Source: Nocardia tengchongensis | GTDB taxonomy: Bacteria > Actinomycetota > Actinomycetes > Mycobacteriales > Mycobacteriaceae | NCBI RefSeq assembly: GCF_018362975.1 | Contig: NZ_CP074371.1 | Coordinates: 7,006,001-7,070,000 of the forward strand | Direction of reading: 5' to 3' | Length of the DNA stretch: 64,000 nt | In this document: one piece after another, positions 1-20,513 of the stretch | How the letters are laid out: every line of letters begins with the position of its first letter | How positions within the stretch are numbered: position 1 is the first letter of the stretch | Notes under the pieces: model-generated | What the model was told of the DNA's origin: nothing | Seen by the model: the letters and a program-made list of their open reading frames with translations, nothing else | The model's database searches: none | Program-made: the position numbers and the translations under genes

Positions 1-264
1 GTGGCCTATCGGAAACCGCCTCGGTTATTCCGCTGATGGGATGCCTTGGCAGGCTCGGGATTTCGTTCGTCAAGTCATGGGCATGAGTGCCCGCAGGGCG
101 TCGACGAAGGCGGCGGTCCACGCAGCGGTGGCAGTGCCGTGCACCAGAACCCGGCCACCGGCTTCTACCTCGTCGCCGGCCCCGGCCTGATCCGCACTAT
201 CCTGGCCGACGACGACGCCTACCGCTCCACGTATGCTTACACTCCGGCGCTCACCCAGGCCGTG
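1..264 (+). other. left edge, unresolved; possible gene fragment
   Basis: No intact gene is visible. On the + strand, about positions 130-290, one frame encodes a stretch beginning NPATGFYLVAGPGLIRTIL. It faintly resembles the N-terminal strand region of actinobacterial cytochrome P450s, but there is no start and the frame degrades after about 50 residues. The similarity is weak and this could be chance coding in high-GC DNA. The stretch adjoins a comM relic on the opposite strand, so this end of the island looks like a patchwork of fragments. Confidence 0.2.
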
Positions 265-530
265 CACGCCCTGACCGAAGCCGTTGCGCCCGGACCGTTT
301 TCCCGATGCCGGGCGGGTCGGGAAGGAGCAGGTGATGTGCGCCGGCCGCAGCCACCTCCAGCGCCCAGCGCGCCTCATCCTGGCCCACCACCTCACGCAG
401 GTCTCCGATCGACGGCTCGGCCACCGGCTAGACCGGGTCGGGAAGTGCGAGTTCGCCACCGCCGCGCAGCCAGCCTGCAGTACGGATAACACCGGGTCAG
501 GCACGCCCGCCCACAGACGGTGAGCCTGAC
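265..530 (-). pseudogene. comM: comM (Mg-chelatase-like ATPase) relic
   Basis: The minus strand encodes an internal piece of the ComM/YifB family. A linker containing GWLRGGGELALPDP is followed by a TAG stop, then VVGQDEARWALEVAAAG, then a Walker A region DPPGIGKT where the family normally has GPPGxGKT. The frame ends shortly afterwards in a stop near position 265. An intact ComM has about 500 residues; only some 80-90 central ones are represented, with at least two stops, so this is not functional. In Mycobacterium and Nocardia comM lies directly downstream of yraN in the same direction. Here the 5' end of yraN is about 32 kb away at the other island edge, in the matching orientation. The family assignment rests on the conserved run around the P-loop and is fairly secure; how the fragment came to be here is inference. 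Confidence 0.7.
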
Positions 531-552
531 CCACGGTGTCGGCACGGAGATA

Positions 553-1458
553 TCATGCGGCGTGAAGCGTTGCTGAAGCCCTCTTGAGTTTGGACCTGCG
601 ATGAGTCTCCGACTTCGCTCGTTCGCCGCGACGAAGTTGGTTGTCCACCAACCGGATCCATCCTTGCGTGTGAAGCCACCGTTGCTGGGCGTGCCCGTCG
701 AGGGCATTGAAGAACAGCGGGATTCCTTTCGCGTCCGCCTGCGTCGCTGCTATCTCTGGCCATCCCGGGCTCTCACCGTTGTGCAGCCGCCGGTGCACGC
801 CGATGAATCGAGCGACGAGAAATCCAACCGCGTGCGGCGTGGCACTCGAGACATGGTCGCCGTGGAATCGGGTGTGGAACCGCCGCCCGGTGCACAGCGA
901 CCGCGAACTCGAGTTCGAGGCGATCCATCCAAGTTTGTCAAGTATCGCGAAGGTGGGGTTCCTGGCGAGTCGGTGGTCGGGAAGCTCGCCCAGCGTGTAT
1001 TGCCACCAATCGTTCGATCGATCGCTGGACCAGAGCTCGTGCCAGGTCGGGCCGACGCCGTGGGTCACCCAGTGATCGGCGATCTCACATGCCAGCATTT
1101 CGCCGAGCACGGCGGCGTCGGCACGGACCAGCGACTGCAGATATTTGGACTCGGCGCGGCGTTCCCGCAGAGCGTCACCGCTGTTCATCCCAGGTGGATA
1201 GTCATGCGCGGCGTTGAGCGCTTCCACTGTCGGGACTTGGCCGGATTGCAGCAACTCAAGTAGCCACTTGGTCTCCGCGTTGCCCCACCGGGTCAGATCC
1301 AGCGGTTGTCGTGATGGGAAACCGTATCGGGCTGGATCGAGTGCTCGGGAGAGGCGCATTGCGGCATCTGCGTCACCAGCCATCGATGTGCCAGCGAGCC
1401 AGGCTTCGGCGCGAGGGTCGATACCCGACCCTCGCCCTTTGAAAATCACTGTGGACAA
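553..1458 (-). CDS. hypothetical protein, 301 aa
   Basis: This is a complete reading frame with start MSTVIFKGRGSG and no recognised family. The first half is rich in charged and helical segments. A stretch at about residues 130-190 (CEIADHWVTHGVGPTWHELW onward) recalls a winged-helix fold, with a Trp-rich helix and a turn before a predicted recognition helix, but that is only an impression. There is no signal peptide or membrane segment. The C-terminus is basic (RRGERAKSETHRRSKLKR), consistent with nucleic-acid binding. It is the first intact gene inside the left edge of the island and is transcribed away from the XRE gene on its right. The function is unknown. Confidence 0.6.
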   Translation of the reverse strand: MSTVIFKGRGSGIDPRAEAWLAGTSMAGDADAAMRLSRALDPARYGFPSRQPLDLTRWGNAETKWLLELLQSGQVPTVEALNAAHDYPPGMNSGDALRERRAESKYLQSLVRADAAVLGEMLACEIADHWVTHGVGPTWHELWSSDRSNDWWQYTLGELPDHRLARNPTFAILDKLGWIASNSSSRSLCTGRRFHTRFHGDHVSSATPHAVGFLVARFIGVHRRLHNGESPGWPEIAATQADAKGIPLFFNALDGHAQQRWLHTQGWIRLVDNQLRRGERAKSETHRRSKLKRASATLHAA

Positions 1459-1682
1459 CGCTTGAGCTCCGATCTCGTGTGATGTGGTCGTTCACGCGAG
1501 GCAGGGCTGGTCCGGGCGACCGTCCCGCCGTACTGGCTCATGCGGACTGATCGGTCGGTCCGGTCGAGAAGGTCGCACAAGGCGATCGGGTCAGCATAGT
1601 ACGACGTTTCTGCATCAAAGGGGGGAAGTAGGACGTTTACGCTCTGGATCATTACGCGCTGGACATATGGGCTTGGCTCGAT

Positions 1683-1952
1683 ATGTCTGGCATTGGCGAT
1701 CGTCCAGCTACTCCGACCGCGGCAGCGTTCGGAGCGCGGGTTCGTGCCCGCCGGACGGAGCTGGGGTGGAGCCAGGAGACGGCAGCGCACGCATGCGGGG
1801 TGCACTGGACCTATCTCGGGCAGATCGAACGAGGGCGGCGAAGCCCTCGACTGGAGAACATCATTCGATTTGCACACGGGCTCCAGACAACCCCGGGTCT
1901 GCTTCTCGATGGGCTGCCCGTGCCGCCGCCCATCAACGAAGGCGCTTGGTAG
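1683..1952 (+). CDS. XRE-family helix-turn-helix regulator, 89 aa
   Basis: This small Cro/CI-type DNA-binding protein is essentially one HTH domain. After about 15 residues the helices read FGARVRARRTELGWSQETAA, followed by HWTYLGQIERGRRSPRLENI, the usual recognition helix and ERGxRxP turn. A third helical section ends in LLLDGLPVPPP. No effector domain follows, so it is probably a repressor of itself or of neighbouring island genes. The start ATG at 1683 gives the expected short leader before the HTH. Family membership is clear; the target is unknown. Confidence 0.8.
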   Translation: MSGIGDRPATPTAAAFGARVRARRTELGWSQETAAHACGVHWTYLGQIERGRRSPRLENIIRFAHGLQTTPGLLLDGLPVPPPINEGAW

Positions 1953-2082
1953 CTCGGCGTTCGGCGCCATTCATGCGACAGCGCGCACGCCGCACTTGTT
2001 CGTCCAGATCAGCGGGTCGGCGGACACGCCCCGGGGCCCGTGTGGCCGTGCTCGGCGAGGCGTTCAGCGATCCATTTCGATA

Positions 2083-2340
2083 TCAGCTCGCTGGGGTCAG
2101 GCCCTGATCACGTCCTATGGCTTCGAGGCGTTCGTCCGCCGTCCAGGGCAGGCGCAGAAAGATTCTGCGGACTCTGATGATTTCCTCGTCCGGCGACGGC
2201 AGCTCGACCGGTTCGGCGTCGTGATCGATGCGCAGGTTGCTTGGAAGCGCGTCGAGCCAATCGGGACCGTAGGCGGCTTCCAGCTTGGCGCAGAACTCCT
2301 CTGTGGGATCGGTTTCCCCGTATGTCCACGGATCGGTCAC
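2083..2340 (-). CDS. hypothetical protein, 85 aa
   Basis: This short acidic open frame begins MTDPWTYGETDPTEEFCAKL and continues with a Trp/Pro-containing central segment and a helical tail (PWTADERLEAIGRDQG). It has no signal peptide, membrane helix or recognised motif. It looks coding because its composition is acidic and balanced rather than the Arg/Pro-rich shadow typical of non-coding frames here. It is transcribed toward the XRE gene and is convergent with it. The function is unknown. Confidence 0.5.
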   Translation of the reverse strand: MTDPWTYGETDPTEEFCAKLEAAYGPDWLDALPSNLRIDHDAEPVELPSPDEEIIRVRRIFLRLPWTADERLEAIGRDQGLTPAS

Positions 2341-2746
2341 CTCAGCCTCCTACGTTCGCGCCAACCTCAACTACCAGCGCAAACGATCCTACGCATCGGC
2401 CCGGCAACGGATCTGGTGTGACCTTGAGCACCGGGTAGGGACTTCGCGATGCGGCTGGCCGCGGTGTCGGAGGTCTGCACCAGCGGGGACAAGTATCAAG
2501 TGGTTACGGATGGAACTGGTCACGAGATCGCCGCCGAGTTGCGGCATGATGGGCCGGTCTCCGGATCACGCCCGACGGTCACCACCGCCCGGGCCCTCAG
2601 CCCCAGGCAGGCCATCGATACCACTGGTCGCGAGTCATCCACGGCCCGTTGGTCATCTGAATCACCAGCGGTAGCGTCGAAGTGTGGGCCGGGCTTCGAT
2701 TCTTGGTCTGCGGGGAGAAGCTGAGTTCGCTGAACGGGGAAGAGCG
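2341..2746. other. intergenic, no supported gene
   Basis: About 400 bases between a minus-strand and a plus-strand gene. Open frames are present but their composition is that of shadow frames, and I recognise no motif, terminator or repeat. Confidence 0.4.
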
Positions 2747-3250
2747 ATGTGGACAGCGGTAGTAGCAGCCGCCGCGGCGATTCTCGGAGTCGCTGTCGGC
2801 CGATTGTGGGACAGCCGGGCCGAGTCCTCACGGTGGCAACGAGATCAAAGGATGGCAAGTTACCAACGCCTCGCCGAGGCGTACCGCAGCAGCTACGACC
2901 AGATCCAAAACATCGCGTTCGCCGACCCACAGGGAGATGACTACCCCAGCCGAGTCAGAAACGCTGTCATACAAGGAAATTCCGTATGGCACGGCGCGTT
3001 GAGCGCCGCTTGGTTCCACGGATCGCCCGCAGCCATCGCAGCGGCGACAATGCTGGATCGGGCTCTCACCCAACTCCACGCGGAGGCAGTGGACCGTCTG
3101 ATCACGGTCACCGAGTGGGGTCCCCCCAGACTCCCTGCACGGCAAGCATTCGAACAGTACATCGAGGCTGTACGCTGCGAACTTTCACTACCGGCAGTAC
3201 CTTTGATCTTCTACCACGACACCGCAGGCCCGCAGCCAGAGGCCGAATAA
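2747..3250 (+). CDS. membrane-anchored hypothetical protein, 167 aa
   Basis: I chose ATG 2747 because it is preceded by a GGGGAAGAG ribosome-binding site and puts a hydrophobic N-terminal helix (MWTAVVAAAAAILGVAVG) at the very start. A longer frame from 2684 lacks these features. After the helix comes a mostly helical, charged domain (RWQRDQRMASYQRLAEAYRS), presumably cytoplasmic. The architecture, one helix followed by a coiled helical domain, is common among short conserved actinobacterial proteins of unknown function. No enzyme motif is visible. Confidence 0.6.
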   Translation: MWTAVVAAAAAILGVAVGRLWDSRAESSRWQRDQRMASYQRLAEAYRSSYDQIQNIAFADPQGDDYPSRVRNAVIQGNSVWHGALSAAWFHGSPAAIAAATMLDRALTQLHAEAVDRLITVTEWGPPRLPARQAFEQYIEAVRCELSLPAVPLIFYHDTAGPQPEAE

Positions 3251-3428
3251 CCGTCCGGTAACCGGCATCAGACATCATGACAAGCCCGGGCGGCTCCGCT
3301 GGCTACCGTCACAACACACGCTGTTCGACGATCCGGGACGAGCGGTCCGCCAACCGTCACACGACAGTGTTCGCACGACAGAATCGGTGTAATGCCACGC
3401 TAAGTAGTCGTGCCGCACGAATATTCTG

Positions 3429-4331
3429 ATGCGGCAGGGTCGGATCGAGCTGTACCGTCTCCTGGTGAACGACACGTCAATCACTGGTCTGGTGCGTACC
3501 GCGCCGAAATCGCCGTACTGGCGCGCGATCACGGCGGAATCCACACTCGCAGCACAGCAGGTCGCCGCGGCCGGCCCAGCTCTCGACGATCTCGACCCCG
3601 CACGGATCGGATCCTTCTACGCCGCGTTCTTCCCGCTCTCCATCGGATACGAGCGAATGGCGAAGATTGCCCTGCATGTAGACACGAAGATCACGACAGG
3701 CGACTTCATCTCGACGAAAACGATGAGAACAGACATCGGCCACCGTCTCAACGAGCTGTTCGATCGTGTAGCAGTGGTCTGCGAGCGGCGCGGGTACAAA
3801 CTCGCCCGGCCGGCGGAACCCATTCACGAGGCAATCCTGTCGATCCTGACCGAGTTCGCGACGACAGGACGCTACAACCACCTCGACACACTCGGGTCAT
3901 CGACAGTCACATCCAAAGACGCTGAGTACGAGTGGGACCAAAGAGTCCTGCCACTGCTGACCGAGAAACACCTCAAGGCCCGGATGAAGGAAACGATGCT
4001 CAGGAAGGCGGCGTTCCTGGGAGCTGTCATCGAGGCCGGTAAGGACGACTTCACCGCCCTCGTCATCCACCACGACGTCAGCGGCGAAATCCATACTGAC
4101 CTGCACACCATGGAGCTGGTTAGGGACCTATACCGGAGCATGAACCCCTGGGGCCGCATGTATGCCCTCCAACTCGGTCGCTGGCTGGCAGAAGTTCTCC
4201 ACGCGCTTTCCAACGACGCGCTTAAAAGTGCCCGCGCACGCGACCATGTCCCGTACCTTATCGAATTCTTCGGCCCGCTCACCGCTAGTGATTCGTTATT
4301 GAGAACTCGCCGTCACCTCATGCGGAGTTGA
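3429..4331 (+). CDS. hypothetical protein, 300 aa, predominantly helical
   Basis: A complete frame beginning MRQGRIELYRLLVNDTSITG. The protein is predicted to be soluble and almost entirely alpha-helical, with no signal peptide and no nucleotide-binding motif. Residues about 55-130 (YAAFFPLSIGYERMAKIALH, then ICDx-like helices) could form an up-and-down bundle as in apoptotic- or HEPN-like folds. I do not see a clear HEPN RxxxxH motif, so no function is claimed. It lies between a membrane-anchored gene in the same direction and the 3' end of the nuclease-NACHT gene, with which it is convergent. Confidence 0.65.
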   Translation: MRQGRIELYRLLVNDTSITGLVRTAPKSPYWRAITAESTLAAQQVAAAGPALDDLDPARIGSFYAAFFPLSIGYERMAKIALHVDTKITTGDFISTKTMRTDIGHRLNELFDRVAVVCERRGYKLARPAEPIHEAILSILTEFATTGRYNHLDTLGSSTVTSKDAEYEWDQRVLPLLTEKHLKARMKETMLRKAAFLGAVIEAGKDDFTALVIHHDVSGEIHTDLHTMELVRDLYRSMNPWGRMYALQLGRWLAEVLHALSNDALKSARARDHVPYLIEFFGPLTASDSLLRTRRHLMRS

Positions 4332-4547
4332 GTTTAAGTGACTTGGACACAACGGATTTCGCCTTCCTGAGTCCTCCCTCTCAGGCGGGCCAGGGCCTAG
4401 GCCAGATCCGAGCCTGGGCCGCTGGCGATGTCCTCCGGATCGCAATAGAACTCGACCACGATTGCGCTCTGCGTGACAGCGGCCAGACCGAATGCCTGCA
4501 CGGCGGTTGGTCTGGCCACGCTGCTGATCTGGCTTTCAGGACACCGC

Positions 4548-7393
4548 CTAGGGCGAGGTTGAGCGCAGAAGCTGGCCGACTGGACTGCGTTGGATCATTG
4601 GCAGCACGAAGTTACGCAGCAGCTCCATCAGCTCTGGCTCGTGATCGACAAGGTTTTCCAACGCCATCTCCAGTATCTCGGCGTCGTCGGGACTGAACAG
4701 GGCTTCGACGAGTGCGGAGAGGTCGACGCCGTTAGGCCCGGCCTGCGAGATAGTACGGATAGACAGGTCGGCCCGTTCAAGTACCTGGCGGTGCGCCGAC
4801 TGGTCGACCAGTTCGGCCACTACCTCACGGTATTGCTGCCATGCCTGATCGGCGGTCGTGGTGAGCTCTCCACGGATACCACCGCCCCGTATGCCGCCTA
4901 GGCCGCGCACGGTGGAGCTGGCTTTGCTCTCATCGGCGGCGGTGTTGACGCGGTCTTGAACGGCGATGGCCGATTCACGGACGAGCGGGACGTCGCTCAG
5001 CGCGCCACGAAGGGCCTCGGCAATCGAAATCCGAACCTGGTCATTGATCATCGCGGCACGCACGAATACGCGCGCCACGGCAAGCGGATCAGCCAGTCGG
5101 GGAACCCGCAAGATCCCGAAGGCCGTCGCAAGGAGACGGTCGTGGAACTTGGGAACCGCACGGGTCATCCCGTCATCGATCAGATCCAAGGCGAGCTCAG
5201 GCGCGATCGGACACACACGGCCCAGACGTTGAGCGGCATACCGGTCGATCTGCTCGACCAGGGAAACAACCGCCTCGTGCTGGTGGGGTTGAGCATCGGC
5301 AAACAGCTGCCCGGCGGCGAAGATCCAGGTGTTGCGCCAATGCGGGTTGGCCGCAGCGATCCTCAATCGGGTGATGACCTCGTCCATAGGACCGGTGGTC
5401 AAAAAATCGTGCGGCCATGAGCTCTTGGAGTGAGCGAACATCGAATCCGAGCCCTTCCTGACCACGCGAGATCGGCGTGAGCAAAACCAGCCGATGGGTC
5501 GCAGCCGTAACGATGCGGTCGAGCAGGTCAGAATCGCCGTGGGCAGGTTGGAAGCCCTCGTCAAGCAGGATCTTCCACGCCACCTGACGTAGTGCGGCGG
5601 GCGCCATCAGCGCCGTCGAGACGTCGCTTTCGCTGCTGACCTGCAATTCGAATCCGACGCGTTGATGCAGCGTCAGAATCGTTTTGCTGTGGTCCTGAAG
5701 TAGGCGTGCGTGCGTGGTCGGTTTGCTTCGTTCTCGCCTGAACACCGTCTCGTAATAGCCCCAGAACAGGCTGTAGCGATCCGGGGCCAACCGCCCGGCA
5801 CCCTCGACGATGATCGTCATGATCAACACCTGGAGTGGGGTTTGCATCAAATGACGCAGTGAGTCGTTCTCGGCGGCCTTGCGCAGCTGTCTGCTGATCC
5901 GCTCGACCTTCTCGTTGTCGCCATTGAGGCGAACCTGCGCGGAGTGAATTCCGTAGGCGACCGCCTCGCTGATCGCCAAGCGTGACAGATCGATTCGCTC
6001 GAAATAGGTCGGGGCGATGTCCTCGCGATAACCGGTAGGTCGAGTCGTCACCACAACGAGGATGTCGCAGTTATCGCCGTCGGCGTCGTCGACGAACTCG
6101 TTGATCTGAGCGATCAGACGCTGACGGATGCGCGGCTCGGTCACTTCGTCGAGGCCGTCGAGTACCAGGAACCAGGGCCACCGTTTCATCCACGAGTCCA
6201 GAGCGCTGGCAGTCACCCTGGCCGCGTTCAACCGCTGGGTCACCTTGTGAGCGATCCAACGCAGAAGTGTCGAGTCCTCTTTGAGCCCTTGTTCCTCGGC
6301 GTATTCGGCCAGGTCGATGCGTATAGGCCAGCGCCGAAACTTCGGCAGACCGTCGCGGCCGAGATCGCGCAGCCGCGTGGTTGTCGCCTCGATCGCGTTC
6401 TGGTGCTCGGCCCCCAGGTTGTCAGCGCCGGCGAGTAGGGCCGCGCGGTAGACCTGTATCAGGAATTTCGACATCGTCGTCTTGCCGTTGCCGGGACCGC
6501 CCACGACCACAATGTGCCGGCGGCGCTGGACGTGGGAGCCCAACTTCGGTCGTAGTACAAGTTCACCGCGGTCGAGGATGTAGCGAAAGACAGTTCGGCG
6601 CTCGCCATTTGGGCCGGGGGTGGATCGGCAGGTCGATGGCGACTCGGTCGACGGGCGTGCCTTTGACCTCGCCGGATCCTGCCTCATCGAAGTAGATCGT
6701 TCGATCGCCGGTCAGCGCTGTCCTGGCATGCTGACGCAACCCAGTTTCCAGGTCGTCGACCGGAAGTCTGTCGGTGAATTCCGCCAGATGCGCGAAGACG
6801 TCGGCCGCGGTCAAGAACGCCGCGAACGCGCGACGAACACCGGCATGTCGGGTGAGCAACACGTCGATCTGGTTGCCATCCCAGATTCGCCACTTGCGTA
6901 TTCTCCGCAGCCGCCGATACTTCTCTTTGCGCTCGGCACCGTCCCCGACATCGCGGCTGCGATCGGAGTAGAGGGCGATGTGGTGCTTGATTTGGGTATT
7001 CACCCAGTCGAATCCGCCAGCACCAGGTACTGGAGTCAGCGGCACGTTGGTCACGATCATCAGATAGTCCGGAACCGGGTCACGACCAGACTCTGGATCG
7101 GCCCATTGTTCAAGTTCGTCGCGTAGCTCGTTCCACAGCCAGGTCGCATTGTCGGTCTGCTTGGACGCTATCCGGAGCTTGTGCTTGGCCTGGAATACGG
7201 TGTAGCCGTTCCATGTCTCCGCGGGCTCGTCGTCGCTACCTTTCCACAGGAGCGCGCCTTGGCAGATCATGTCCCGGCCGCCGTCTGCCCCAGGCCCCAT
7301 GTCCTGGATCTGCGGGCCGAACTCCGCGACGGCGAGCGCGGCGGCCAGATCCTGGAAGCCTGAGGGACTTACACGTGACAGATCGTGTTGCAC
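4548..7393 (-). pseudogene. PD-(D/E)XK nuclease-NACHT NTPase, two frameshifts (Avs-like)
   Basis: The reading frame is split in three; joined, it encodes about 947 residues. Segment one (7393-~6615) starts with MQHDLSRVSPSGFQDLAAAL and contains GPGADGGRD followed by QAKHK, the D...(D/E)xK arrangement of Mrr/restriction-like nucleases. Segment two (~6615-~5405) holds the NACHT NTPase core: Walker A GGPGNGKTT, Walker B FLVLDGLDEV and a sensor-like TTRPTGYRED. Segment three (~5405-4548) is helical and probably an effector- or target-sensing region. The breaks coincide with a G5 run near 6615-6619 and an A6 run near 5401-5406; removing one base at each restores one frame. Nuclease plus STAND/NACHT plus a C-terminal sensor is the architecture of antiviral Avs and bNACHT proteins, so abortive phage defence is the likely role. 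Either the gene is inactivated or the sequence has homopolymer errors. Confidence 0.75.
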
Positions 7394-7699
7394 TCAGCCA
7401 TGATGCCAGGCGATAGCAGTGCCGAGCCCATCATTCCAACCGACGGTCGCACGCATGCCGAGCTGCACGAGTTCGACGCCAGCCACGGTATCGTGCCAGG
7501 GCGCTAGCCCTGCTCCTTCGGACTGAGTCTGGCTTAGGGCAGGCATATCTTACGAGACCCGCCGGCGGCGCTCTGGTGCAACAACATCCATCGAGTACGT
7601 GCGGATGTCGGCCGATGACGTGTAGCGGCGGATCTCCAGGTACGCAACAACATTGAGTGAGGCTTGGTCCGGGCTGCCGAATCGTGGCTCTGTTGGTGC
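7394..7699. other. intergenic between the two NTPase genes
   Basis: About 300 bases with no supported gene. The upstream NTPase gene ends at 7700 and the downstream one starts at 7393, both on the minus strand. No hairpin terminator was noticed, so co-transcription is possible. Confidence 0.4.
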
Positions 7700-10600
7700 T
7701 CAGAGGCATCGGTGGTGGGCGGCGGTGAGCAACCCGTACATCCAGACCACGATGTGCCATGTCTGGTGCAGCAACGCCGGATCGTTCGCCAGCAACATCG
7801 GCGAATCCGACTCGATGTGGGCGCCCACGGCCAGAGTGGCATTGAGCAACTCGGTGGCCAGTGTCTGGGCAGCCTTGTCGTAGCCGAGGTCCTCACCGCA
7901 GACGGTGCTGAGGTCAAAGCTCGGCGGGATCGGCCGCGTCACCCGGTCGGCGTCGAAGTTCGCGCTCAGATACTGCCTGATCCACTGCAATGTGAGCGCG
8001 ATGAGGGTTGGTCCTTGTGCCAAGTCGTAGAAGATTGCCAGCAGGTCATCGCCGGATGCCGCGTCAGCGACTCGCCATCGGGCATCGCGATCGGTGGCCA
8101 ACTGCTCCAGTCCGGTTTGAATGTTCCGCAGCAGCTGCACGACGTCTAGAGGTATGCGGCCGATGTGTTCGCCGACGACCGTGATGGTGGGTGCGGTCGG
8201 GTGCGTGCGGTTGCCCTGGTCGGCTTCTTGGGTCCACAGTTGCAGTCGAATGCGTTCGTGTGCGGTCTCGGGGTGGTCGATGGTGTAGATCTCACGGTCG
8301 ATTGCCAGCGCCTGCTCGACCCGGGCGATCGCCGCGGGAAGGTCGCCTTGGTCGTGTAGGACGTCGGCAAGGCCGACCAGCACGGCCGGCAGGCGCGGGA
8401 GGTAGCCCGACCCCATCCCGTCGAGCATCGCGATTGCCTGTTCGAAACCTCCGCGTGCCTGATCGAGCTGACCCACGGCGGCGGACAGTCGGGCTTGAAT
8501 GGTCACATGGTCGACCGAGGCGATCGAGGTCTCGTCGAAACCGTTGTTGCTGATCAGGTCTCGGGCCTGTGTGAGCAGTGTCTGGGTGATATCAAGTCGG
8601 CCCGCCGTCACGGCCGCATCGGCGGCGGCGTGGAGGTTGAGGATTCGCGCCAGCGACGTGAGCTGCGCAGCCGTTATCGGTTGCTGCTGCAAGCCCACGA
8701 CCGCCAAGGCATGGCCGAGCGCCTGGGCCGGGTTGCCTCGGTCGCGGGCAAGCAGCGACGCGGTGGTGAAGGCTTTGACCTGCAGCTTGGCGGGCACATT
8801 CGCCTGGTCGGTCCTGATGATGTCGAGTGCACGCGCGCACACCGCGGATGCGTTCTCGGGCTGTCCTAGCATCCTGAGGATGTTCACCTGCGCGAGCAGG
8901 ACAGGTAGCTGGAGGTCGTGATCGAGTTCCATAGTCGTGAACTGGTCGAGGTAGCCCAGAAGGACCTCGGCGGTATCACGATGTCCATGGATCGTAACGA
9001 TCGGTTCGGCGGCGACGACTGTCTGAGCGATGATCCGGTAATCCGACAGATCGAACCCGAAGATCATGGCGTCGCCGATCGTGGCGAGAGCGTCGTCGAC
9101 ACGCCCGACCAGGGAATAGGCGTGGGCCAGGTGCAGGCGGGTCAGCGCGGCGACCAGCTTCCACATCGGATCGGCGACGACTTGGGCAAGTCGACCTGAC
9201 GAGATGCAGGCTTGCTCGCCTAGCTCGATCGCCGACCATCCGCTGCGTGTCGAGGCTTCTCGGGGCCGACCAATGTCAGCCGCTGGCACAGCAGCATCGC
9301 GAGGGTGATCGGTGCGATTCCGTGGAAATCGTGTTCGAGTGCGGTCGCCGCGACATGGGCTGCAGCGCCCAGATTCTCATCCAACCCGGGCATGGGATCG
9401 TCGAGCCCGGCATCGGGGGATGCCCTGAGAAACAACCCGACACCAACCTCGAACCACGGGGCGTGATCGTCGATCGCGGCTTGGGCCACGATCGCGATCA
9501 GGGGATGCACCGAAACGAACCCGCCGGCCGCGGTGAGCAGCGACAGCTTCGCCAACCGTTCCACGGCGTGATCGCGGAAATTCCTGTCACGCAACATCGC
9601 CCGCATCTGCACGGCGAGTTCGGTTGGTGGGGCTGGCGGTACGACGGTGCCGGCAACCATGCCGCGGCGGGCACCTTTTCCACCACCTGGGTGTCGCGTT
9701 CGCTGACTCCGACATCGACGGTGGATGGAGAAAGGCCAGCGGGAACGGTGCGTCGAACAAGCTCTCGTGAACCGGCGAGGGCCCCAGCAATGCCAGGATA
9801 GTGAGAAGGACCAGTGCATCGGGATCGGCGTCGCGGACCGTGTCGATGTTGATCCGGATCGACTCGATGATCGAGGCTTTGTGCCCGGTGGCTCGACCGA
9901 GCTCCAGTACGTAGGCTGGCGCCTCGTCGAGGCGCTTGAGGTAGTCGTCGATGCTGCGGGAACGAACACGGCAGTGATCGACGGCCTGGTTGATCGCCAA
10001 GGGATTGTCATAGAGCGCCTCGCGTAACCGATCTCGATCCTCGCTGGTCTCGCGAGGCAGCAGTGAGTACAAGAACGCGCGGCTGTCGCGGTGCTCCCAG
10101 GCCGCCAACGGCAGTTCTCGATATCCAGAATCGAGGTTGGCGACCACAGTCGTGATCAGGATCCGGCACAGGCTGGCACGAGGAATCAATCCGGCGATCA
10201 CAGACGCGTCGGTGACGCCGTCGAGGATCAACAGCAGCCCAGATGTGGTCGGCAGGGCTGCAGTCACCGGGGACTGGGCCTCGGCGATGCCCGAGGAGGG
10301 CCACTGCTCCTCGCGGTGCCCCCACTCAACACCTGAAGCGCAGTAATGACCTGTGCACGGCTGGTAGCAGGGATGAACACCGGACGCATGCTCGGATGAC
10401 ACTGTGCAGCGAACTGCGTTGCCACGCTGGTTTTCCCGCAGCCGGTCATGCCACTGATGGCCACCGGTGCCACCGGCTCGACCCCGCCCGGATCGAGCCA
10501 TTCACGCAGGCACGCCAACTCGGTATCGCGGCCGACGAACCGGGCATCGGGTTCCCACCCGAATCGTGGGCTCGGTGCTGTGGCCGCCAGCTGCCGATCA

Positions 10601-11400
10601 TGCTCGCCCAGCACGATCGACTCGGCTTCCGCGACCGGCAACCACCGCGCGGCCAGCGCGGCCGCATCGGTCGAGTCCACATACGGCAAGAGCGAATCCA
10701 CCAGTGCACGACGACTATCCGGCGACGGCGGCACCGGGTAAGGTCGCCCCAACTCCATCACCCGCGCCGTCAATGCCTCGAAACACTCCCGCGCGTAGAG
10801 CCCAGCGAAATCCCGGCCTCTCAACGTGAGCAACCGGGCCACAGTCACCGCACCAGTCGCCTCGATCTCGAACTTGCGAGGTAGTGGTTGCGCAGTCAAC
10901 TCCAGGTCGGTGGCGAAGTCCGTCGCCTCCTGGGTATCAACCCCCAGTATCGTGGCGAGCCATCCGACGAACTCCGGTGAAGGATCGGCTCCCTCAACGA
11001 TGTTGCGGTGGTCTACGCGTGCCGGGCCGACGAAGCCCGCATTGGACCACAACACCGGTTGGCAGGCTCGCCCGGCCTCGACCCACTGCCGGTGCAGATC
11101 CGTCAACGGCTTCTGCAGCTGGGTCCGCTTCCAGCCACTGTCACCCGAGCGTTGATGCGGCTCCCGATGTTTGATCGACACCAGCTTCGGACGGCGATCA
11201 CCGAAGATCAACATCACATCCGAGGAATGCTGGACAACGACTGCACGCAGGTCGACACCATCCACGACATGGCGGATGAGTTCCAATGCCACAGCATGCT
11301 TTTCGAACTGCACCCACGCCTCGGAGTCCGGGCCCGCATTCTTCTTGTCCACCGGCAGCCGCAACGCCGGACCCACCACGTGCTCCCCCACATCTGGCAT
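7700..11400 (-). pseudogene. nuclease-like/NB-ARC-type STAND NTPase with TPR region, about three frameshifts
   Basis: Four overlapping frames assemble into one protein of about 1,233 residues. The N-terminus (from 11400) has a segment SSDVMLIFGDRRPKLVSIKH resembling the D...xK core of DUF4297/Cap4-type nucleases. This is followed by an NTPase core with Walker A SGMTGCGKTSVA, Walker B LLLILDGVTD, RILITT and an NB-ARC GxP-like NPLAINQAV. A winged-helix-like section follows (AVERLAKLSLLTAAGGFVSV), then a long TPR-like solenoid (VDDALATIGDAMIFG; GQLDQARGGFEQAI; GDLPAAIARVEQALAI). Frame changes fall near 10,319-10,323 (a C5 run on the plus strand), about 9,650-9,720, and about 9,245-9,270. The order matches Avs-type antiviral NTPases. 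It lies upstream of, and in line with, the nuclease-NACHT gene, suggesting a paired defence locus. The nuclease call is tentative; the NTPase and TPR calls are firm. Confidence 0.7.
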
Positions 11401-11610
11401 GCCGCGAGAATACGACCCTCGACCGACAGCGGCTGCATCAACGCCCGAGCCACTCGCCTATCCGCCGGAGCCAGGCTTGGTCGGAGCGCGCCCCGTCACG
11501 GTCGCGGACATCAGTGTCGGTGCTTCGGTCGAGCACCGAGGCATCCGCCACATCTAGTGCCATATCCTCACCGGCGCCGAACGCGTCAAGGAGCGCCGAA
11601 GTCGCCGATA

Positions 11611-12090
11611 TCAGCCGGAGCGGCGGGCGCTGCCCGGGGCACTACCACAGGCCCTGTCCCCCGCAGGATCAGTCGGATGCGGTGCCGAGACCCTGCGTTC
11701 GGCGGGCCGGGTCAAGGTGAGTTCGCTGGGCGAGAACGCCAAAACGTCGGTACAGACCGAGGGCTTCACCCGCAAGAAGTCCGGCTCGACATGGTCGGCG
11801 ATCGCGACCAGCGTGCCCGATCGACCCACATCGATACCGACTGCGTCGGTGGTGAACCACACCCGCGGCTTACGGCCCGCAGCAAGGTCGACGGTGAGCC
11901 GCTCGATCTCGATAGCGGACAAGGACTTCGACGTGGCAGCGCGAGAGGCCATTCTGAGCTCCAGGCGAGAAGCGGTCAGGTACCGGCGAGCATGCCCGAG
12001 CAAACCGACATCGCGCATCTCGAAGCCAGAGCATGTAGCGCCATACGGTGCTGCCCAGATAAGGCCGGACGACTCGTCAAGGCGATCCAC
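11611..12090 (-). CDS. hypothetical protein, up to 159 aa
   Basis: The convincing part starts at an internal Met (MRDVGLLGHARRYLTASRLE) and runs through AGRKPRVWFTTDAVG, GRSGTLVAIADHVEP and LAFSPSELTLTRP. This basic start followed by a small beta-rich module is a pattern I associate with conserved short proteins on actinobacterial mobile elements. The last ~30 residues (PAERRVSAPHPTDP onward) look like out-of-frame read-through, so the true C-terminus may be nearer 11,700. It is transcribed toward the NB-ARC gene, about 210 bases upstream of it. No function is known; DNA or RNA binding is a guess from the basic helix and small beta module. Confidence 0.55.
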   Translation of the reverse strand: MDRLDESSGLIWAAPYGATCSGFEMRDVGLLGHARRYLTASRLELRMASRAATSKSLSAIEIERLTVDLAAGRKPRVWFTTDAVGIDVGRSGTLVAIADHVEPDFLRVKPSVCTDVLAFSPSELTLTRPAERRVSAPHPTDPAGDRACGSAPGSARRSG

Positions 12091-12152
12091 CTGCTACAGA
12101 ACCGCACGTCCTGCAAGACCACGAGATTCAATCCACACGAGGATGAAAAGGC

Positions 12153-12512
12153 TCAGTGGCTAATCATTCGAGCGAGAGCCACCGAGAACGCAATCCCGAA
12201 CGCCGCACAGAGGCCGGTCGATCCCAACGCATACCCGAGCATCAACACGTACAGTGCGCCATTAGCGGTCACGATCAGCGCTGTCCACGGATCCCATGTG
12301 CGTGAGACCGGCCCCGCAAGACGGTCGGCCCAACGCCGAGGATGATCAGCAAGCTCGTCATCCCACACGGAGGTGTCGCCGAACTGCACGATCTGCGCCA
12401 GGTTGTGCTGAATCGGCGTCCGGGCCTTGAGATGGAGCACCGCGGGAATGGGCTCCTGACAACCCACCACCGGCGGTTCCGAGAAGGGTGGCCGCAGGGG
12501 GCAACGGGCCAA
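12153..12512 (-). CDS. small membrane protein, 119 aa
   Basis: The N-terminal half is polar (LAQIVQFGDTSVWDDELADH). The C-terminal half is hydrophobic, with two adjacent membrane helices (TALIVTANGALYVLMLGYAL and GLCAAFGIAFSVALA) and a short polar tail. Several Met codons could serve as the start; the longest form is given. It is the first of a run of minus-strand genes leading into the NTPase pair. No family is recognised. An association with the defence genes is only positional. Confidence 0.5.
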   Translation of the reverse strand: MARCPLRPPFSEPPVVGCQEPIPAVLHLKARTPIQHNLAQIVQFGDTSVWDDELADHPRRWADRLAGPVSRTWDPWTALIVTANGALYVLMLGYALGSTGLCAAFGIAFSVALARMISH

Positions 12513-12796
12513 GGGAATCCCTTTGTCCTCCTTAAGAGATCAGCAAGACCGTGGGAGGAGGATGACAACCGATGTTGATCTTGCTCAGGTGCCCGCGCTC
12601 GACTCCTCGTGCGTCAGCGATCCTCGTCGCGCCTGATGGGGCCACTTCGCTGCCGTCGGTTCCGAGTGTCGGCCACGACTATCTGCGCTTCCACCGTGTT
12701 GAACGATCACGTCCAGCGCGATCCGCAGATCGGTCTTTATCTGCCATCGATAGGCGAGCCACTCCACCGGAGCGCCGCCCGTTCAGGAGTTGAGAA

Positions 12797-14095
12797 TTGA
12801 AGAACACATTTCTACCCCATCGCAGAGCCTCGATAGTGAAGAATGTTTCTACATTGTCACTTCTAATCTTATTGGCCGCGGGATGTGCGAGTGGCAACGA
12901 GGTTAATTCGACCGCATCTTCCAGTCAGTCTCCAACTTCCACAGCAACGGATCCCGGCAACCGAAAACCGTTCGATCCACCGAAGGTATTCAATGGATCT
13001 CCCATTTCCAAAGAAGGCCCATTAGACCCTAAGCGCACGCTGGGATCGTGCATCATCGGGGATGGCGCCGTCTACTGCGGATCCAGTAGTGGGTACCTGG
13101 CATCGATTGATCCTGCTAACACGAAGCAGAAGAAATGGACGTTGAAGACATCATTGTCCCCGGATAAGAATGCAGGCTGGCAGGCAACCTCGCCAGTGAG
13201 CGATGGTGATTCCGTAATTGCCGCCTTCACCGGCAGTGTGAATGGCACTGGAACATCCAAAGACAAGCGTTCGATTGAGATTATTGCTGCCGACAAATCG
13301 ACTGGAAAGCTCCAATGGAGTGCTGTAATTGATACAGGCGAGTCGCCGCTTCAGGATCTCAGAATTGTTGGGATAACCGGCGACTCACTCGTACTGTCAT
13401 CCGGGGAGCCGACGTTCTGCGACTGGAGCGATCGTACCTCCACGACCTGGGTCGTAGACGCTTCCACGAAGAAGCTTCGGTGGAAGAGGGAGGGGCTTAT
13501 GGCTGGCCAGGTCGGGAAGGGTGTCGTGTCGGGCAATGTCAAGGTGGCGAGAAATAACGTCGCCGAGACCGCTCTCGGTGGTCTTGATTTGACTGACGGC
13601 CATACTCTGTGGGAGTCCCCAACTGGAGGTTCAGTAACGAACTTTCTTCGCCCTGATATATCCGATCTCGCGGTGACGGCGACTTGCTCAGGAAAGAACC
13701 TCGACCTGATCGATCCAACGTCGGGGGCTGTCTTGTTCACCGAGAACTCGGCGACCCACACCGAACTGAATCCTGGGTGGAGCTGCGTATTTGATCAATC
13801 GACAATGCTGATCTGTCAGGAAAAGGTTTCCCAAGGTCGAATAGTCGGCATTGACGTGAGCTCGCCAAAGCGGTCCGTATGGCAATTGTCTTCAAACGGA
13901 GACAGAATGCCACCGAAAATAACCGGAGCATATCACGGAATAGTGTATGCGCTTGTCGATAGGGGAAAGATGCAGGCGGTGGCCTTGGATGCCAATTCTG
14001 GCCAAGACCTCCCGGACTCGCCTGTTGTTGCACCAGTCTTGGTCGACAATTACCTCGGTGTCACCACCGAGGGAATTTTCCTTCCAGTACGTTAG
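12797..14095 (+). CDS. lipoprotein with PQQ-type beta-propeller repeats, 432 aa
   Basis: A signal peptide runs from a basic N-terminus (MKNTFLPHRRASIVKN) through LSLLILLAAG to Cys, giving a lipobox LAAGC near residue 30. Lipidation should anchor the protein on the outer face of the membrane. A Ser/Thr-rich linker follows, then blades of a PQQ-like propeller recognisable from the repeated Trp-ending strands (STGKLQWSAVID, STKKLRWKREG, DGHTLWESPTG). Its base composition is clearly more AT-rich than the neighbours (many AAT, TTG and ATA codons), pointing to a foreign origin. A 16-bp hairpin downstream probably ends the transcript. A second, host-like lipoprotein of similar design occurs at 40,934. 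The ligand is unknown. Confidence 0.8.
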   Translation: MKNTFLPHRRASIVKNVSTLSLLILLAAGCASGNEVNSTASSSQSPTSTATDPGNRKPFDPPKVFNGSPISKEGPLDPKRTLGSCIIGDGAVYCGSSSGYLASIDPANTKQKKWTLKTSLSPDKNAGWQATSPVSDGDSVIAAFTGSVNGTGTSKDKRSIEIIAADKSTGKLQWSAVIDTGESPLQDLRIVGITGDSLVLSSGEPTFCDWSDRTSTTWVVDASTKKLRWKREGLMAGQVGKGVVSGNVKVARNNVAETALGGLDLTDGHTLWESPTGGSVTNFLRPDISDLAVTATCSGKNLDLIDPTSGAVLFTENSATHTELNPGWSCVFDQSTMLICQEKVSQGRIVGIDVSSPKRSVWQLSSNGDRMPPKITGAYHGIVYALVDRGKMQAVALDANSGQDLPDSPVVAPVLVDNYLGVTTEGIFLPVR

Positions 14096-14190
14096 AGCAA
14101 GATGCATAGAGTGATCGAGTGCTGGCGGCGGTGAGCGATACCCATCGCGGCAGTTAGGGGCCTCGATCGCCACTCCGGCGGGCCCGCGAT

Positions 14191-14227
14191 CGATGATGCG
14201 GGAGGAGATGTTCCTCCCGCATCATCG
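14191..14227. terminator. bidirectional hairpin terminator
   Basis: A perfect 16-bp inverted repeat (14191-14206 with 14212-14227) with a 5-base loop. The arms contain GATGATGCGGGAGGA and its complement. It lies between the convergent lipoprotein gene ending at 14,095 and the small membrane protein gene ending at 14,252. No long T-tract follows, which is usual for high-GC Actinobacteria. Confidence 0.8.
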
Positions 14228-14251
14228 CATTGCGCCATCAGATCAGCTCAG

Positions 14252-14485
14252 TCAGATACGCCGGACCGCGACCACCCGCGACGCCCCACCTCTCAAGATT
14301 GCGCATACGCAGATTGGCACAGTGCCTAGAGCTCCGACAATGATGGCAATCACTGCGACCAGCCAATGCTTGCTGATGTGCCGCCGTGCGAAGGAGACGG
14401 TACCCAGCACACTAAACAGGACGAAAGGTATCGCAATCAAGCTCCCCATTTCGGCACCCACCATCCTTATTTCGTTGAATCGCAA
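14252..14485 (-). CDS. small membrane protein, 77 aa
   Basis: Two hydrophobic helices (SLIAIPFVLFSVLGTVSF and WLVAVIAIIVGALGTVPICV) are separated by a basic loop (ARRHISKH), with a short basic C-terminal tail. It is presumably a two-pass inner-membrane protein with both ends on the same side. The frame is convergent with the lipoprotein gene across the hairpin at 14,191-14,227. No family is recognised. The regular alternation of hydrophobic helices and charged loops argues that it is coding. Confidence 0.55.
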   Translation of the reverse strand: MRFNEIRMVGAEMGSLIAIPFVLFSVLGTVSFARRHISKHWLVAVIAIIVGALGTVPICVCAILRGGASRVVAVRRI

Positions 14486-14811
14486 CCCATTTCAGCAGAT
14501 TCGACGCGATCGCGCACGTCAGGTGGCAGACTCGGTAAGTCTGATCGCTCGGCGTCCGCGTGAACCACTCAGGCATGGTTGGCCTACCGGGTGGGCGTGT
14601 CCAAGGTGCGGATGAGGGTGTATACCATTGCGCCGCAATATGTTTCGAATTGTCGCAGTAGGCACGCTCGGCGATCGCGACGTCTGGATTGCGTCCTGGC
14701 GGCCCCGCCAGCGAAGCGCTGCGCCACCATTGTGTCCAACTGCGGTGGCGACAACGGCGAGTCGTTCGTTTTACTGGCTTGAGCAGCACAGCAAGACCTC
14801 GGTAGACGATC
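14486..14811. other. intergenic, no supported gene
   Basis: About 325 bases between divergent genes, so it should contain promoters for both. I could not identify convincing -35/-10 boxes or operators. Confidence 0.35.
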
Positions 14812-15372
14812 ATGGAGGGCATGACTCCATGGCTTCGCCTTGTTGGCTTCAATGATTCCCCGTCCAGGGCCGACTACGAGCACGTCGAGGACTATAAAGA
14901 GCTCTGTAGCTCGTTGGGCAGCAATGGGATTGAACTCGACTTCCACTACGCCCCCGAAGCTGTTGCTCATGCACTGGCCAAGCCAGCAGCGGTGACGGTC
15001 GTCGATGCCCATGGCACCCTGGAGGAGCCTCCCGCTATCGGAGGAGGAGGGCGATGGCTGTTCATGGAGAGTGTCCGGTCGATCAACGCCCACGGGGTGC
15101 TGCTTGGAGCTTGCTACACCGCCACAGGAACTTTCGCGAAATCAGCCCCGGTCGGCCGGCTCCTCGCCGGAAAAGGGTTCCTCGGCGGATTGGGAAGCAT
15201 TCCACCCGACGACACGCGGATCCTCGTCGCCGTGATGGTCAAGCTCCGCAACACGTTTGGAATCCCGACTTCAGGTACTAGTGCTCAAGCATTTCTTGAT
15301 CAGACATTGGCTGCGGCGATCGCGGCCCGTCCCCAGAAGGCCTTTTCCAAGCGATGGGGGGCGATGCAGTAG
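14812..15372 (+). CDS. small CHAT/caspase-like protein, 186 aa
   Basis: The protein begins MEGMTPWLRLVGFND and has two short conserved-looking strands. One ends in AVTVVDAHGTLEE, with a His-Gly after a hydrophobic strand. The other is AHGVLLGACYTATG, with a Cys after a hydrophobic strand, about 45 residues later. This His...Cys spacing and context is what CHAT and other caspase-fold peptidases show (hhhxxHG ... hhhhxxC). The protein is at the short end for the family, with no extra domains. CHAT proteases often act as effectors in bacterial conflict systems. It is isolated between small genes, 2.4 kb upstream of the Sel1-repeat NTPase. I infer the family from the dyad only; a non-peptidase fold is possible. 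Confidence 0.5.
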   Translation: MEGMTPWLRLVGFNDSPSRADYEHVEDYKELCSSLGSNGIELDFHYAPEAVAHALAKPAAVTVVDAHGTLEEPPAIGGGGRWLFMESVRSINAHGVLLGACYTATGTFAKSAPVGRLLAGKGFLGGLGSIPPDDTRILVAVMVKLRNTFGIPTSGTSAQAFLDQTLAAAIAARPQKAFSKRWGAMQ

Positions 15373-15423
15373 GCCGGCCAAACACCGGTTCTATCCGCAG
15401 TGGCAGGCCGAGGATACGACCAG

Positions 15424-15809
15424 CTAGAACGACGAGTTCAAGCAGAAACGCGACGCCATAGCGCGTTTGCTGGGCCGCCGAGTCAATTACGCCGAGGTGG
15501 TCGAGCCGCTCGGCGACGCAGATACCTCACCCCGAATCATCGCGTACGGCCGGCGTCCGCTGGTCCGGAGCCAGGTCGCAGACCAGCAGTCCACCGGTCA
15601 TCGGCATAAAGCGGTGCTCCCGGTGCACAGAACTCCGCCCAAGGATCCGCTTCGCCAGCGGATGCCAGTCCTAGTCGATCGGGGCCCTGAACGAGAACCT
15701 CGCGAAGGCGTCCGCAGAGAACCGCACCCTCCGCCGATCCCTCGAAGGATCCCGCGCCACCGTCAAACGCGAACGCGAACGCAACATCACGCAGATGTTT
15801 CCTCAGTGA
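15424..15809 (+). pseudogene. relic of a coiled-coil protein
   Basis: Two pieces in different frames remain. Near 15,430-15,510 there is FKQKRDAIARLLGRRVNY. At about 15,685-15,809 there is LNENLAKASAENRTLRRSLE ending in KRERERNITQMFPQ and a stop. Together they resemble a short leucine-zipper-type protein of the sort seen beside actinobacterial integrases and transposases. The middle is out of frame and no start is visible, so this is decayed. The family call is tentative. Confidence 0.35.
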
Positions 15810-15844
15810 CCGGACTCCAGCGCTCCCGACCACTATCAGCCCGC

Positions 15845-16105
15845 TCAGTCTGCCGACTCGGCAGCATCGAATCTGTCCGGTTCCTTGTTGACCTTTGAGA
15901 ATCGTCGCCTGAGCAGCCATACCTCGCCGACCTCAATGCCGTCCATCGCTAGACCTAACCCGCCGTCAGCGACCCGGCCCACCCTTCCCACCGCGATCAG
16001 CTCCAATGAGTACATCGCGCCGAGATGGCGGCCACCGGGCGGCGCTGCAAAAGAACTCAGCTGCGGAGCCAAATTTCGTAGCAGCGCAACAGATCTGATA
16101 CCCAT
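15845..16105 (-). CDS. hypothetical protein, 86 aa
   Basis: This frame may be coding from MYSLELIAVGRVGRVADGG (Met at 16,015), with the longer start at 16,105 less likely. It contains a short beta-rich stretch and an acidic tail (NKEPDRFDAAESAD). The longer form overlaps the neighbouring small frame by about 50 bases. No family is recognised and confidence is low. Confidence 0.35.
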   Translation of the reverse strand: MGIRSVALLRNLAPQLSSFAAPPGGRHLGAMYSLELIAVGRVGRVADGGLGLAMDGIEVGEVWLLRRRFSKVNKEPDRFDAAESAD

Positions 16106-16188
16106 TGCTGCCCGTGCCGTACATCAGGATCGTCAGGATCGGCGCCTTCCTCGCGCAGGGCCTGGCGTTCGTACTCATCGAATTCCAT
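16057..16188 (-). CDS. very small hypothetical protein, 43 aa
   Basis: It starts at Met 16,188 (MEFDEYERQALREEGADPDD) and ends ...CYEIWLRS. The acidic, helix-forming composition contrasts with the Arg-rich read-through above it, which suggests a real start here. It could be the N-terminus of a longer gene interrupted downstream. No function can be given. Confidence 0.35.
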   Translation of the reverse strand: MEFDEYERQALREEGADPDDPDVRHGQQWVSDLLRCYEIWLRS

Positions 16189-16331
16189 GTCAGTTCTGAC
16201 GGTGCACGGCTGTTGGCGGTTGCCCCGGCGGTGTGGATGACCTGTGCTTCGCCTACGCCAACATCGGATCCTGCATGACGCCCCATGAACCCGACGATGT
16301 CGATCGTGCCGACTCAACCCGTTCGAGCATG

Positions 16332-16740
16332 TCATGTTCGCGCACCGCTCTGGGTTGTGTCTGCTAACGATTTGAGCCATTCGACGATGAGGGCCAGGAC
16401 GAATCCCGCACGGTAGGTGGTCGCGAACTTGCCGTAACGCGTGGCCACCGCCCGCCAGTGCCTGGCATTGTTGAAGGCACGCTCGATGACGTTGCGGCGC
16501 TTATAGAGCTCGGCATCGAACTATGGTGCCCGGCCCGCGAATCTGCCTGTGCGTTTGCGGTTAGCGACCTGATCGGAGCGTTCCGGAATGACGGTCCGGA
16601 TACGTTTGCGCCGCGACAGGGCCAGTCGCGATGCCGCCGAGTCGGTGCGGCCGGCGATGCCGACGTCCGGGTTGGGGTGCGACGGCCCGCCTTCCAGACG
16701 TGGCACCACCACCGCCCCTCGCAACCCGGTATCGATCACC
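16332..16740 (-). pseudogene. IS5-family transposase C-terminal relic
   Basis: One minus-strand frame carries KRIRTVIPERSDQVANRKR, then an in-frame TAG (16,521-16,523), then FDAELYKRRNVIERAFNNAR, RAVATRYGKF and FVLALIVEWLKSL. This is the characteristic C-terminal third of IS5-type DDE transposases (YKxRNxVER...RAxATRYxK). The N-terminal catalytic part is missing and there is an internal stop, so it is inactive. No terminal inverted repeats were identified. Confidence 0.75.
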
Positions 16741-17217
16741 GATCATGGTCGCCACGGCGGCCAAGATGCACGGATCGGCCCCGACTGCGAGACCAATCGA
16801 TTCACCCGTAGGAGACACGACCTAGCACCCCTGGTGTCTGCCACCGGACCGAAGCCCCGAGTCGATCCGCTTCGAGAGATCGCGACGTCTCGAACTTCAA
16901 GCAGTCCTCCGCAGGGGGCTGACACTCCGAGATTGGGTATCTCCGTTTGTGTGCGGGGAGCTCGATGCTTCCACGACGACAGCGGACCAGTCGGCGGCGA
17001 AGGCATGGCGAGTGTCGTTGTGAGCCTGGCCCGTTCCGACCGAGCTTTCGCCGTTCGGGTCGATTTCTCGATCCTCGTTCCGTGGCGCTTCCCGGTCGGA
17101 TCCGATCATTTCCACGCATTCCTCATCAGTTCCGATCAGGTCGCCGACATGCGTTTTCTCCTGTGCTGGAGTGGTTTTCGATCCACTTGGAACGAGTACG
17201 GGACGGAGAAGCGGAAG
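16741..17217. other. no supported gene; remnant DNA upstream of NTPase pair
   Basis: Long frames are present on both strands but none has a convincing protein-like composition or motif. This stretch probably combines IS-relic DNA and the promoter region of the small membrane protein and NTPase genes that follow. Confidence 0.35.
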
Positions 17218-17346
17218 ATGTGGAGCGAGCTCGGCAAGACGGTGCGCACGGCGATGAAGGATTGGCCGGCGCTGCTGCGATTCGTCATATGCGTGGTGGT
17301 GCTCACCGCCGCGGCAGCGCTGCTGTTGTGGATGGGGGCACGGTGA
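17218..17346 (+). CDS. one-helix membrane protein, 42 aa
   Basis: ATG 17218 is preceded by GAGAAGCGGAAG and gives MWSELGKTVRTAMKDWPALL followed by a single hydrophobic helix (FVICVVVLTAAAALLLWM) and Gly-Ala-Arg. A longer frame exists upstream but its composition is not protein-like. The stop lies only 32 bases before the start of the large NTPase/Sel1 gene, so the two are almost certainly co-transcribed. A short amphipathic helix plus one transmembrane helix upstream of a TPR/Sel1 NTPase is a pairing I associate with actinobacterial genomes. A membrane tether or membrane-acting effector is possible. Confidence 0.65.
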   Translation: MWSELGKTVRTAMKDWPALLRFVICVVVLTAAAALLLWMGAR

Positions 17347-17378
17347 ACGCCGCCCATAAATGGGGTCGGTGACGCAGG

Positions 17379-20226: not shown

Positions 20227-20513
20227 ACCACGCCGTGTGTTGTTGGCGTGCCTCAGTCACCGAAATGGAGGTCGAGATCGCCAGTACCGGTGATCCGTGT
20301 CGGCGTGACCTTGCCTGCGGCGGAGGACTTCTCAGACTTCAGGAGCCCACTTCTGAAGTCGCCGTCAGGCTGACAGCCGAGACGATCCTGCAGCCACCGT
20401 CGCGCCCAACGTCACCAGTATTGTTACCCTGCAACGGCATTCATCATGTCTGGCGGTCACCTGTCAGGCAAACTGAAAATCGTGTCGCGATGCGGCATCG
20501 GGGAAGGTAACGC

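Follow-up and report, generated by a model that had tools for sequence, protein, structure and literature searches.

A 64,000-nucleotide stretch of Nocardia tengchongensis (the window; positions 7,006,001-7,070,000 of an 8.0-Mb single contig) carries two adjacent coding regions on the minus strand, gene A (4548-7393) and gene B (7700-11400), separated by 306 bp. A and B are cargo of an island inserted in yraN. They probably belong to two different families of bacterial NLR-like (STAND) defence proteins borne on a mobile defence island. The effector-switch-sensor plan of bNACHT and Avs proteins is found in both genes, which points to nuclease-driven abortive anti-phage defence as the best reading. 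The domain order, the conserved nuclease and nucleoside triphosphatase (NTPase) residues, the NLR- and Avs-like predicted folds of intact relatives, the island context and the frame breaks are observed; sensing, ATP-driven assembly, DNA cutting and the anti-phage outcome are assigned by analogy with the named families.

An earlier note on this DNA described two adjacent minus-strand genes. Their positions, strand and three-part domain order hold, but neither is a single open frame; A is in three pieces and B in four, and the checks proposed in that note already referred to "corrected" proteins. The features are as follows.

4548..7393, minus strand: gene A, nuclease-NACHT-helical protein in three frames, from open reading frames (ORFs) and relatives
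6608..7393, minus strand: A piece 1, residues 1-263 of P0024 (N. carnea, 942 aa), 63% identity
5395..6624, minus strand: A piece 2, P0024 residues 258-666, 72% identity
4563..5408, minus strand: A piece 3, P0024 residues 662-942, 59% identity
7271..7285, minus strand: A putative nuclease motif DGGRD; D, G, G and R invariant in 85/85 rows of alignment A2, last D conserved in at least 90%
7181..7195, minus strand: A putative nuclease motif FQAKH (QxK); K invariant in A2
6475..6498, minus strand: A Walker A, GPGNGKTT
6142..6171, minus strand: A Walker B, FLVLDGLDEV, NACHT type
7700..11400, minus strand: gene B, Cap4/LmuA-like nuclease, AP-ATPase-type STAND and TPR in four frames
10312..11373, minus strand: B piece 1, residues 5-359 of P0001 (N. 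terpenica, 1236 aa), 58% identity
9668..10390, minus strand: B piece 2, P0001 residues 329-571, 57% identity
9256..9636, minus strand: B piece 3, P0001 residues 581-708, 49% identity
7721..9262, minus strand: B piece 4, the TPR region, P0001 residues 707-1230, 39% identity; PF13424 (TPR_12) E 1.6e-12
11161..11232, minus strand: B putative nuclease motifs QHSSD and VSIKHRE; D and SxK conserved
10426..10452, minus strand: B Walker A, GMTGCGKTS
10214..10237, minus strand: B Walker B, LLLILDGV

The comparison with intact relatives revealed two breaks in A, with frame changes at 6608-6624 and 5395-5408, and three in B, at 10312-10390, 9636-9668 and 9256-9262. Each of the five is in or beside a run of 4-6 identical bases. 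Because the pieces are 39-72% identical to single-frame proteins of other genomes, the reading frames of A and B are beyond chance. Programmed frameshifting was considered for the five frame changes and ruled out, since in relatives a single frame encodes the corresponding protein.

The core of A is a NACHT module of the STAND class. Its NTPase piece matches NPHP3_N (1.6e-6) and related P-loop models in Pfam; the first and last pieces have no Pfam match at E<=0.1. The N-terminus appears PD-(D/E)xK-like from its motif, the topology of the model and a profile link, without a significant Pfam hit. D37GGR and K70 are invariant, the topology of the model is a fitting one, and the domain has a 99% profile link to a domain having one weak Mrr_cat match. 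The model of the 942-aa N. carnea relative resembles NOD2, NLRP3 and NLRC4. The C-terminus is helical in the model of an intact relative and is the least conserved part of the protein: mean column conservation drops from 0.70 (nuclease core) and 0.75 (NTPase) to 0.47 over the last 100 residues.

A is an additional member of the bacterial NACHT kind, which is already known. At E<=0.001 it has 449 relatives, and many of the 120 listed are named NACHT domain-containing protein. A nuclease-NACHT layout with an N-terminal PD-(D/E)xK DNase is described for bNACHT25 and bNACHT32 in parts of PMC12169576. The proposal that the two genes are an undescribed system is thus not upheld, and the claim of a new paired system does not stand. 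A resembles bNACHT25/32, and other bacterial NACHT proteins that begin with such a DNase, in its putative N-terminal PD-(D/E)xK-like domain, central NACHT, helical C-terminus and predicted NLR fold. It differs in the nuclease pattern, which is DGGRD...QxK and Mrr-like, and its organism-named relatives are actinobacterial. The likeness observed is one of architecture.

Gene B has a putative nuclease of a different type and a different sensor, as had been predicted, and its STAND core is of the AP-ATPase/NB-ARC type. Pfam recognises AAA_16 (2e-6) in one of its pieces and TPRs in another; the second piece has a weak match only, and the third has no match at E<=0.1. Residues 1-370 of B match 23 proteins of 783-1276 aa among 7,993 candidates scored. 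Eleven of the 23 have an organism name, nine from Nocardia and two from Actinoplanes. At E<=0.01, AAA_16 was found in all 23, TPR_12 in 22, NB-ARC in 11 and Cap4_nuclease in nine. The best relative for PF14130 (Cap4/DUF4297), P0017, scores exactly at the 26.2-bit cut-off; neither the window's B piece nor the N-terminal stretches of L065 and L068 match this model. The PADLOC model of LmuA matches 10/23 relatives (best 3.4e-11). FxSxx_TPR (NF040586) matches four relatives with E from 7.4e-49 (P0001) to 1.2e-32, and the scores of the four (166.9, 158.1, 166.5 and 113.4 bits) are all below the 300-bit cut-off.

The model of one B relative, P0007 (1075 aa, pLDDT 82.3, pTM 0.53), has its best Foldseek match to the Avs3-terminase complex 8dgc (E 7.2e-12, TMq 0.17, rmsd 39.7), followed by the STAND protein PH0952 (6mfv, 9.3e-12), Apaf-1 (1z6t, 2.0e-9) and CED-4 (6.3e-8). 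The models and the Pfam matches of relatives indicate that B has the effector-STAND-C-terminal repeat architecture of Avs (AVAST). Mean column conservation of B is 0.60 in the nuclease core, 0.64 in the NTPase and 0.53 in HD1/WHD; along the TPRs it is 0.50, 0.44 and 0.53. The helical C-terminus of A and the TPRs of B, both anticipated in the earlier note, agree with Pfam and the models of intact relatives. The same is true of the nuclease-STAND-sensor layout: both cores are STAND, and a nuclease-like domain is indicated at both N-termini, in A by the evidence given above. Neither of the two results that the note named as refuting it, the lack of a nuclease fold and an NTPase core outside STAND, was obtained.

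Three known systems are close to B. Avs3 carries a Cap4 nuclease and has the same domain order. B shares with it the putative Cap4-like nuclease, the STAND and the predicted TPR sensor, and Avs3 (8dgc) is the top Foldseek match of the relative's model. Unlike Avs3, B has an AP-ATPase/NB-ARC-like NTPase that is closest by profile to FxSxx_TPR, its relatives are 783-1276 aa long against a chain of 2028 residues, and no PADLOC Avs model was matched. In Lamassu, LmuA is a separate protein beside LmuB. The N-terminal domain of B relatives is like LmuA/Cap4 (DUF4297), but in B the LmuA-like nuclease is fused to a STAND NTPase. The FxSxx-COOH TPR protein (NF040586) resembles B in the NTPase and TPR region (P0001, E 7.4e-49). 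It differs in that the B score is under the family cut-off (166.9 of 300 bits) and in that the N-terminus of B is a predicted nuclease; the FxSxx type has an N-terminal TIR according to parts of PMC7159879.

The combination of nuclease and AP-ATPase in B is the freshest part of the locus; no searched defence model covers the whole. No PADLOC model of 2023 covers the B family as a whole. In a library that holds few subscription papers, no listed paper names the nuclease/AP-ATPase/TPR combination or the Nocardia copies in its title or the opening of its abstract, which is weak evidence of novelty. There is an even chance that the B family is an uncharacterised anti-phage family, in which a Cap4/LmuA-type nuclease is driven by an Apaf-1- or plant NLR-like AP-ATPase with a TPR sensor. 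In this reading it arose separately from Avs3, when the nuclease type of Avs3 was joined to a different branch of STANDs, the one found in FxSxx systems. Two Actinoplanes members of the B family, P0020 and P0021, have an extra P-loop domain after the TPRs, in the C-terminal ~200 aa. In P0020 it is found by PF13401 at 1113-1239 and a mad8-like match, and in P0021 by alignment.

The proposed mechanism is as follows. In an intact copy, the C-terminal part (the helical region of A, the TPRs of B) would recognise and bind either a phage protein or a host protein that infection has altered. The NTPase, which is of NACHT type in A and of AP-ATPase/NB-ARC type in B, would thereby be freed to take up ATP and form oligomers, in which the N-terminal nuclease domains would lie close to one another. 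The nucleases would then cut both phage and host DNA, and the infection would end with the cell. A and B would each act alone. Sensing by the C-terminus, assembly driven by NTP, activation of the nuclease and an abortive outcome are deduced from the tripartite plan set out in PMC12169576 and PMC12931631. On this mobile actinobacterial island, NLR-like genes of the NACHT branch (animal NLRs) and of the AP-ATPase branch (Apaf-1 and plant NLRs) stand side by side, and intact relatives of both A and B are at hand for testing.

Several observations weigh against this reading. In A, Mrr_cat matches only 3/45 members (best E 0.0083), the N-terminal profile gave four chance coiled-coil matches and no nuclease when compared by sequence with solved structures, and the nuclease part lies outside the coverage of the structure comparison. 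The window's own N-terminal pieces of A and B have no nuclease match in Pfam. The N-terminal profile of B found none of the solved structures by sequence. PADLOC includes Avs models, and none of them was matched at E<=1 by P0001, P0003, P0012 or P0020. At the position where B has S in its SxK motif, D, E or Q is usual, so the nuclease could be altered or inactive. With a TMq as low as 0.17 and an rmsd as high as 39.7, the Avs3 match is better evidence of a shared domain order than of rigid structural agreement. VIA-align of B is uninformative on the nuclease and NTPase, because TPRs filled the list, and tested the TPR part alone. The last TPR part (0.53) is no less conserved than the HD1/WHD part (0.53). 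A and B may also have a role outside phage defence.

The frame breaks permit two explanations. Either the breaks are sequencing or assembly indels and the living strain has both genes whole, or they reflect real decay. The two have about the same odds; the choice concerns the state of these copies, not the function of the families. The assessment rests on a comparison with coding-like ORFs of the genome G570, which has the closest rnhB (93% identical), against the window and its left flank. Twenty-nine G570 ORFs matched at >=60% identity, and exclusion of the island-split yraN left 28 core genes. The names xerC, glnD, rnhB, comM, dprA, yraN and those of other core genes were assigned by eye, without a family search. 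Of these 28 genes around the island, three (xerC, glnD and one at 58916-59711) are split between two frames in this genome, and it is this that makes error and decay about equally likely. By comparison with G570, the two-frame core genes are outside the island, at 50930-53456 and 58916-59711 of the window and at 5079-6015 of the left-flank stretch L094.

Runs of identical bases at all five A/B breaks and two of the three core breaks, the latter of six bases, resemble long-read indels, and the window's own pieces retain the nuclease and NTPase motifs; both favour error. Slippage at base runs is, however, a natural route of decay as well. On the side of decay, A and B have more breaks for their length, 5 in 6.5 kb against 3 in 27.8 kb of aligned coding sequence in the core genes, with a binomial value of 0.008 and a Poisson value of 0.0008 against the core rate. 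By a coarse test, the ORF statistics of the genome resemble those of another finished Nocardia: ten 20-kb stretches (200 kb) have 174 and 172 coding-like ORFs in the own and the other genome, respectively, with mean lengths of 316.9 and 318.9 aa and 5.0 and 4.5 same-strand overlaps per 100 kb. Broken copies exist elsewhere too, of B in G659 and on a Rhodococcus plasmid (L042), where it adjoins an IS3 element, and of A in Nonomuraea dietziae (L019). If real, the breaks would be consistent with self-destructive immunity being expensive to maintain.

It is improbable that the NTPases are regulators, like MalT, AfsR or parts of the FxSxx peptide system, and not defence proteins. The NTPase-TPR part of B is indeed related to FxSxx_TPR, and P0003 is weakly related to AfsR (4.4e-6). 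Against this, the N-terminus of B relatives is Cap4/LmuA-like and no DNA-binding helix-turn-helix (HTH) was found there, A and B share the island with a Septu-like pair, and PMC7159879 counts the AP-ATPases linked to FxSxx among conflict systems.

The earlier note also suggested that A and B are a tandem system with two specificities. The two genes are adjacent on the same strand, 306 bp apart, and no terminator-like site was found between them. The families do not travel together, however. In a search of 148 Nocardia genomes, the own genome included (E<=1e-20; 4-5 candidates per genome scored in the rows shown, so that some may have been missed), the A family was found in seven, three of these, including the own, at >=59% identity, and the B family in five. 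Only the window's own genome has both, where 0.24 genomes would be expected by chance. Among 15 fetched neighbourhoods of 12-20 kb (10 of A, including one contig twice, and five of B), none has both at E<=1e-8. A conserved pair is therefore not observed in independent genomes. The neighbours of A relatives vary on Rhodococcus and Arthrobacter plasmids. With these distributions, one functional two-gene, two-specificity defence system is very improbable.

The NTPase piece of A matches 13/201 genomes of the taxonomic family. The first piece of B matches 2/201; one is the own genome, and the other is matched only over the P-loop. It matches 55/394 genomes of the class; besides the own, only G494 is matched over nearly the whole length. 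Among plasmid records, 28 were matched by the NTPase piece of A and one by the first piece of B. A phage-borne origin was rejected, as neither A nor B relative matches any of 50,697 phage records at E<=1e-5. The plasmid pUSK13_2 of Rhodococcus sp. USK13 (90000-110000; L092) carries an A-family gene twice, the copies being in inverted orientation. A sensor-swapping arrangement was considered for them and dropped; the copies differ by 1 base in 2865, indicating duplication.

The island is ~39.2 kb long (contig 6,999,356-7,038,600) and is inserted inside yraN, splitting the gene. The split yraN and the flank comparisons with G570, in which the left flank ends at 3748 of L095 and the right begins at 3750, support this structure. 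The N-terminal piece of YraN ends beside a recombinase at ~32,600, and the C-terminal piece lies in L094, beyond the window. In the three relatives examined (G570, G579 and G022), yraN is in one frame. GC content in 2-kb steps is 0.57-0.68 over 1-34,000 and 0.66-0.73 over 36,001-64,000. No DNA repeat of >=12 bases common to the island ends was found (1.2 kb against 1.8 kb).

1..32600, no strand: island part within the window; the left end is outside, at contig ~6,999,356 (L094 9356)
31324..32514, minus strand: tyrosine recombinase next to the island's right end, PF00589 E 2.4e-17

Left of the window and within the island, a PtuA-like ATPase and an HNH protein are each in one open frame (L094 13770-14510 and 14507-15955). 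The best match of the ATPase is retron PtuA (5.4e-16), and the HNH protein matches PtuB (1.6e-5). By sequence, they are a predicted Septu-type pair.

Other genes of the island were also observed. Its right end holds a 113-aa protein and a 765-aa protein with many CxxC pairs by eye. A small HTH protein at 1683-1952 (plus strand) is like restriction-modification control proteins (1.7e-11); a partner was sought among the scanned ORFs only. At 278-472 (minus strand), there is a stray match to residues 167-231 of G570 ComM (86%). The whole comM is outside the island, so this is a second fragment and not a frame break of comM. An 875-aa protein at 17379-20006 (plus strand) shows, by eye, a motif resembling a P-loop, together with TPR/Sel1 repeats (TPR_1 4.8e-27), and its gene has a DNA period of 96 bp with 9 to 11 copies. 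Because the final repeat unit is shifted by one base (spacing 193), the end may likewise be frame-broken. This gene is a possible third STAND-type gene.

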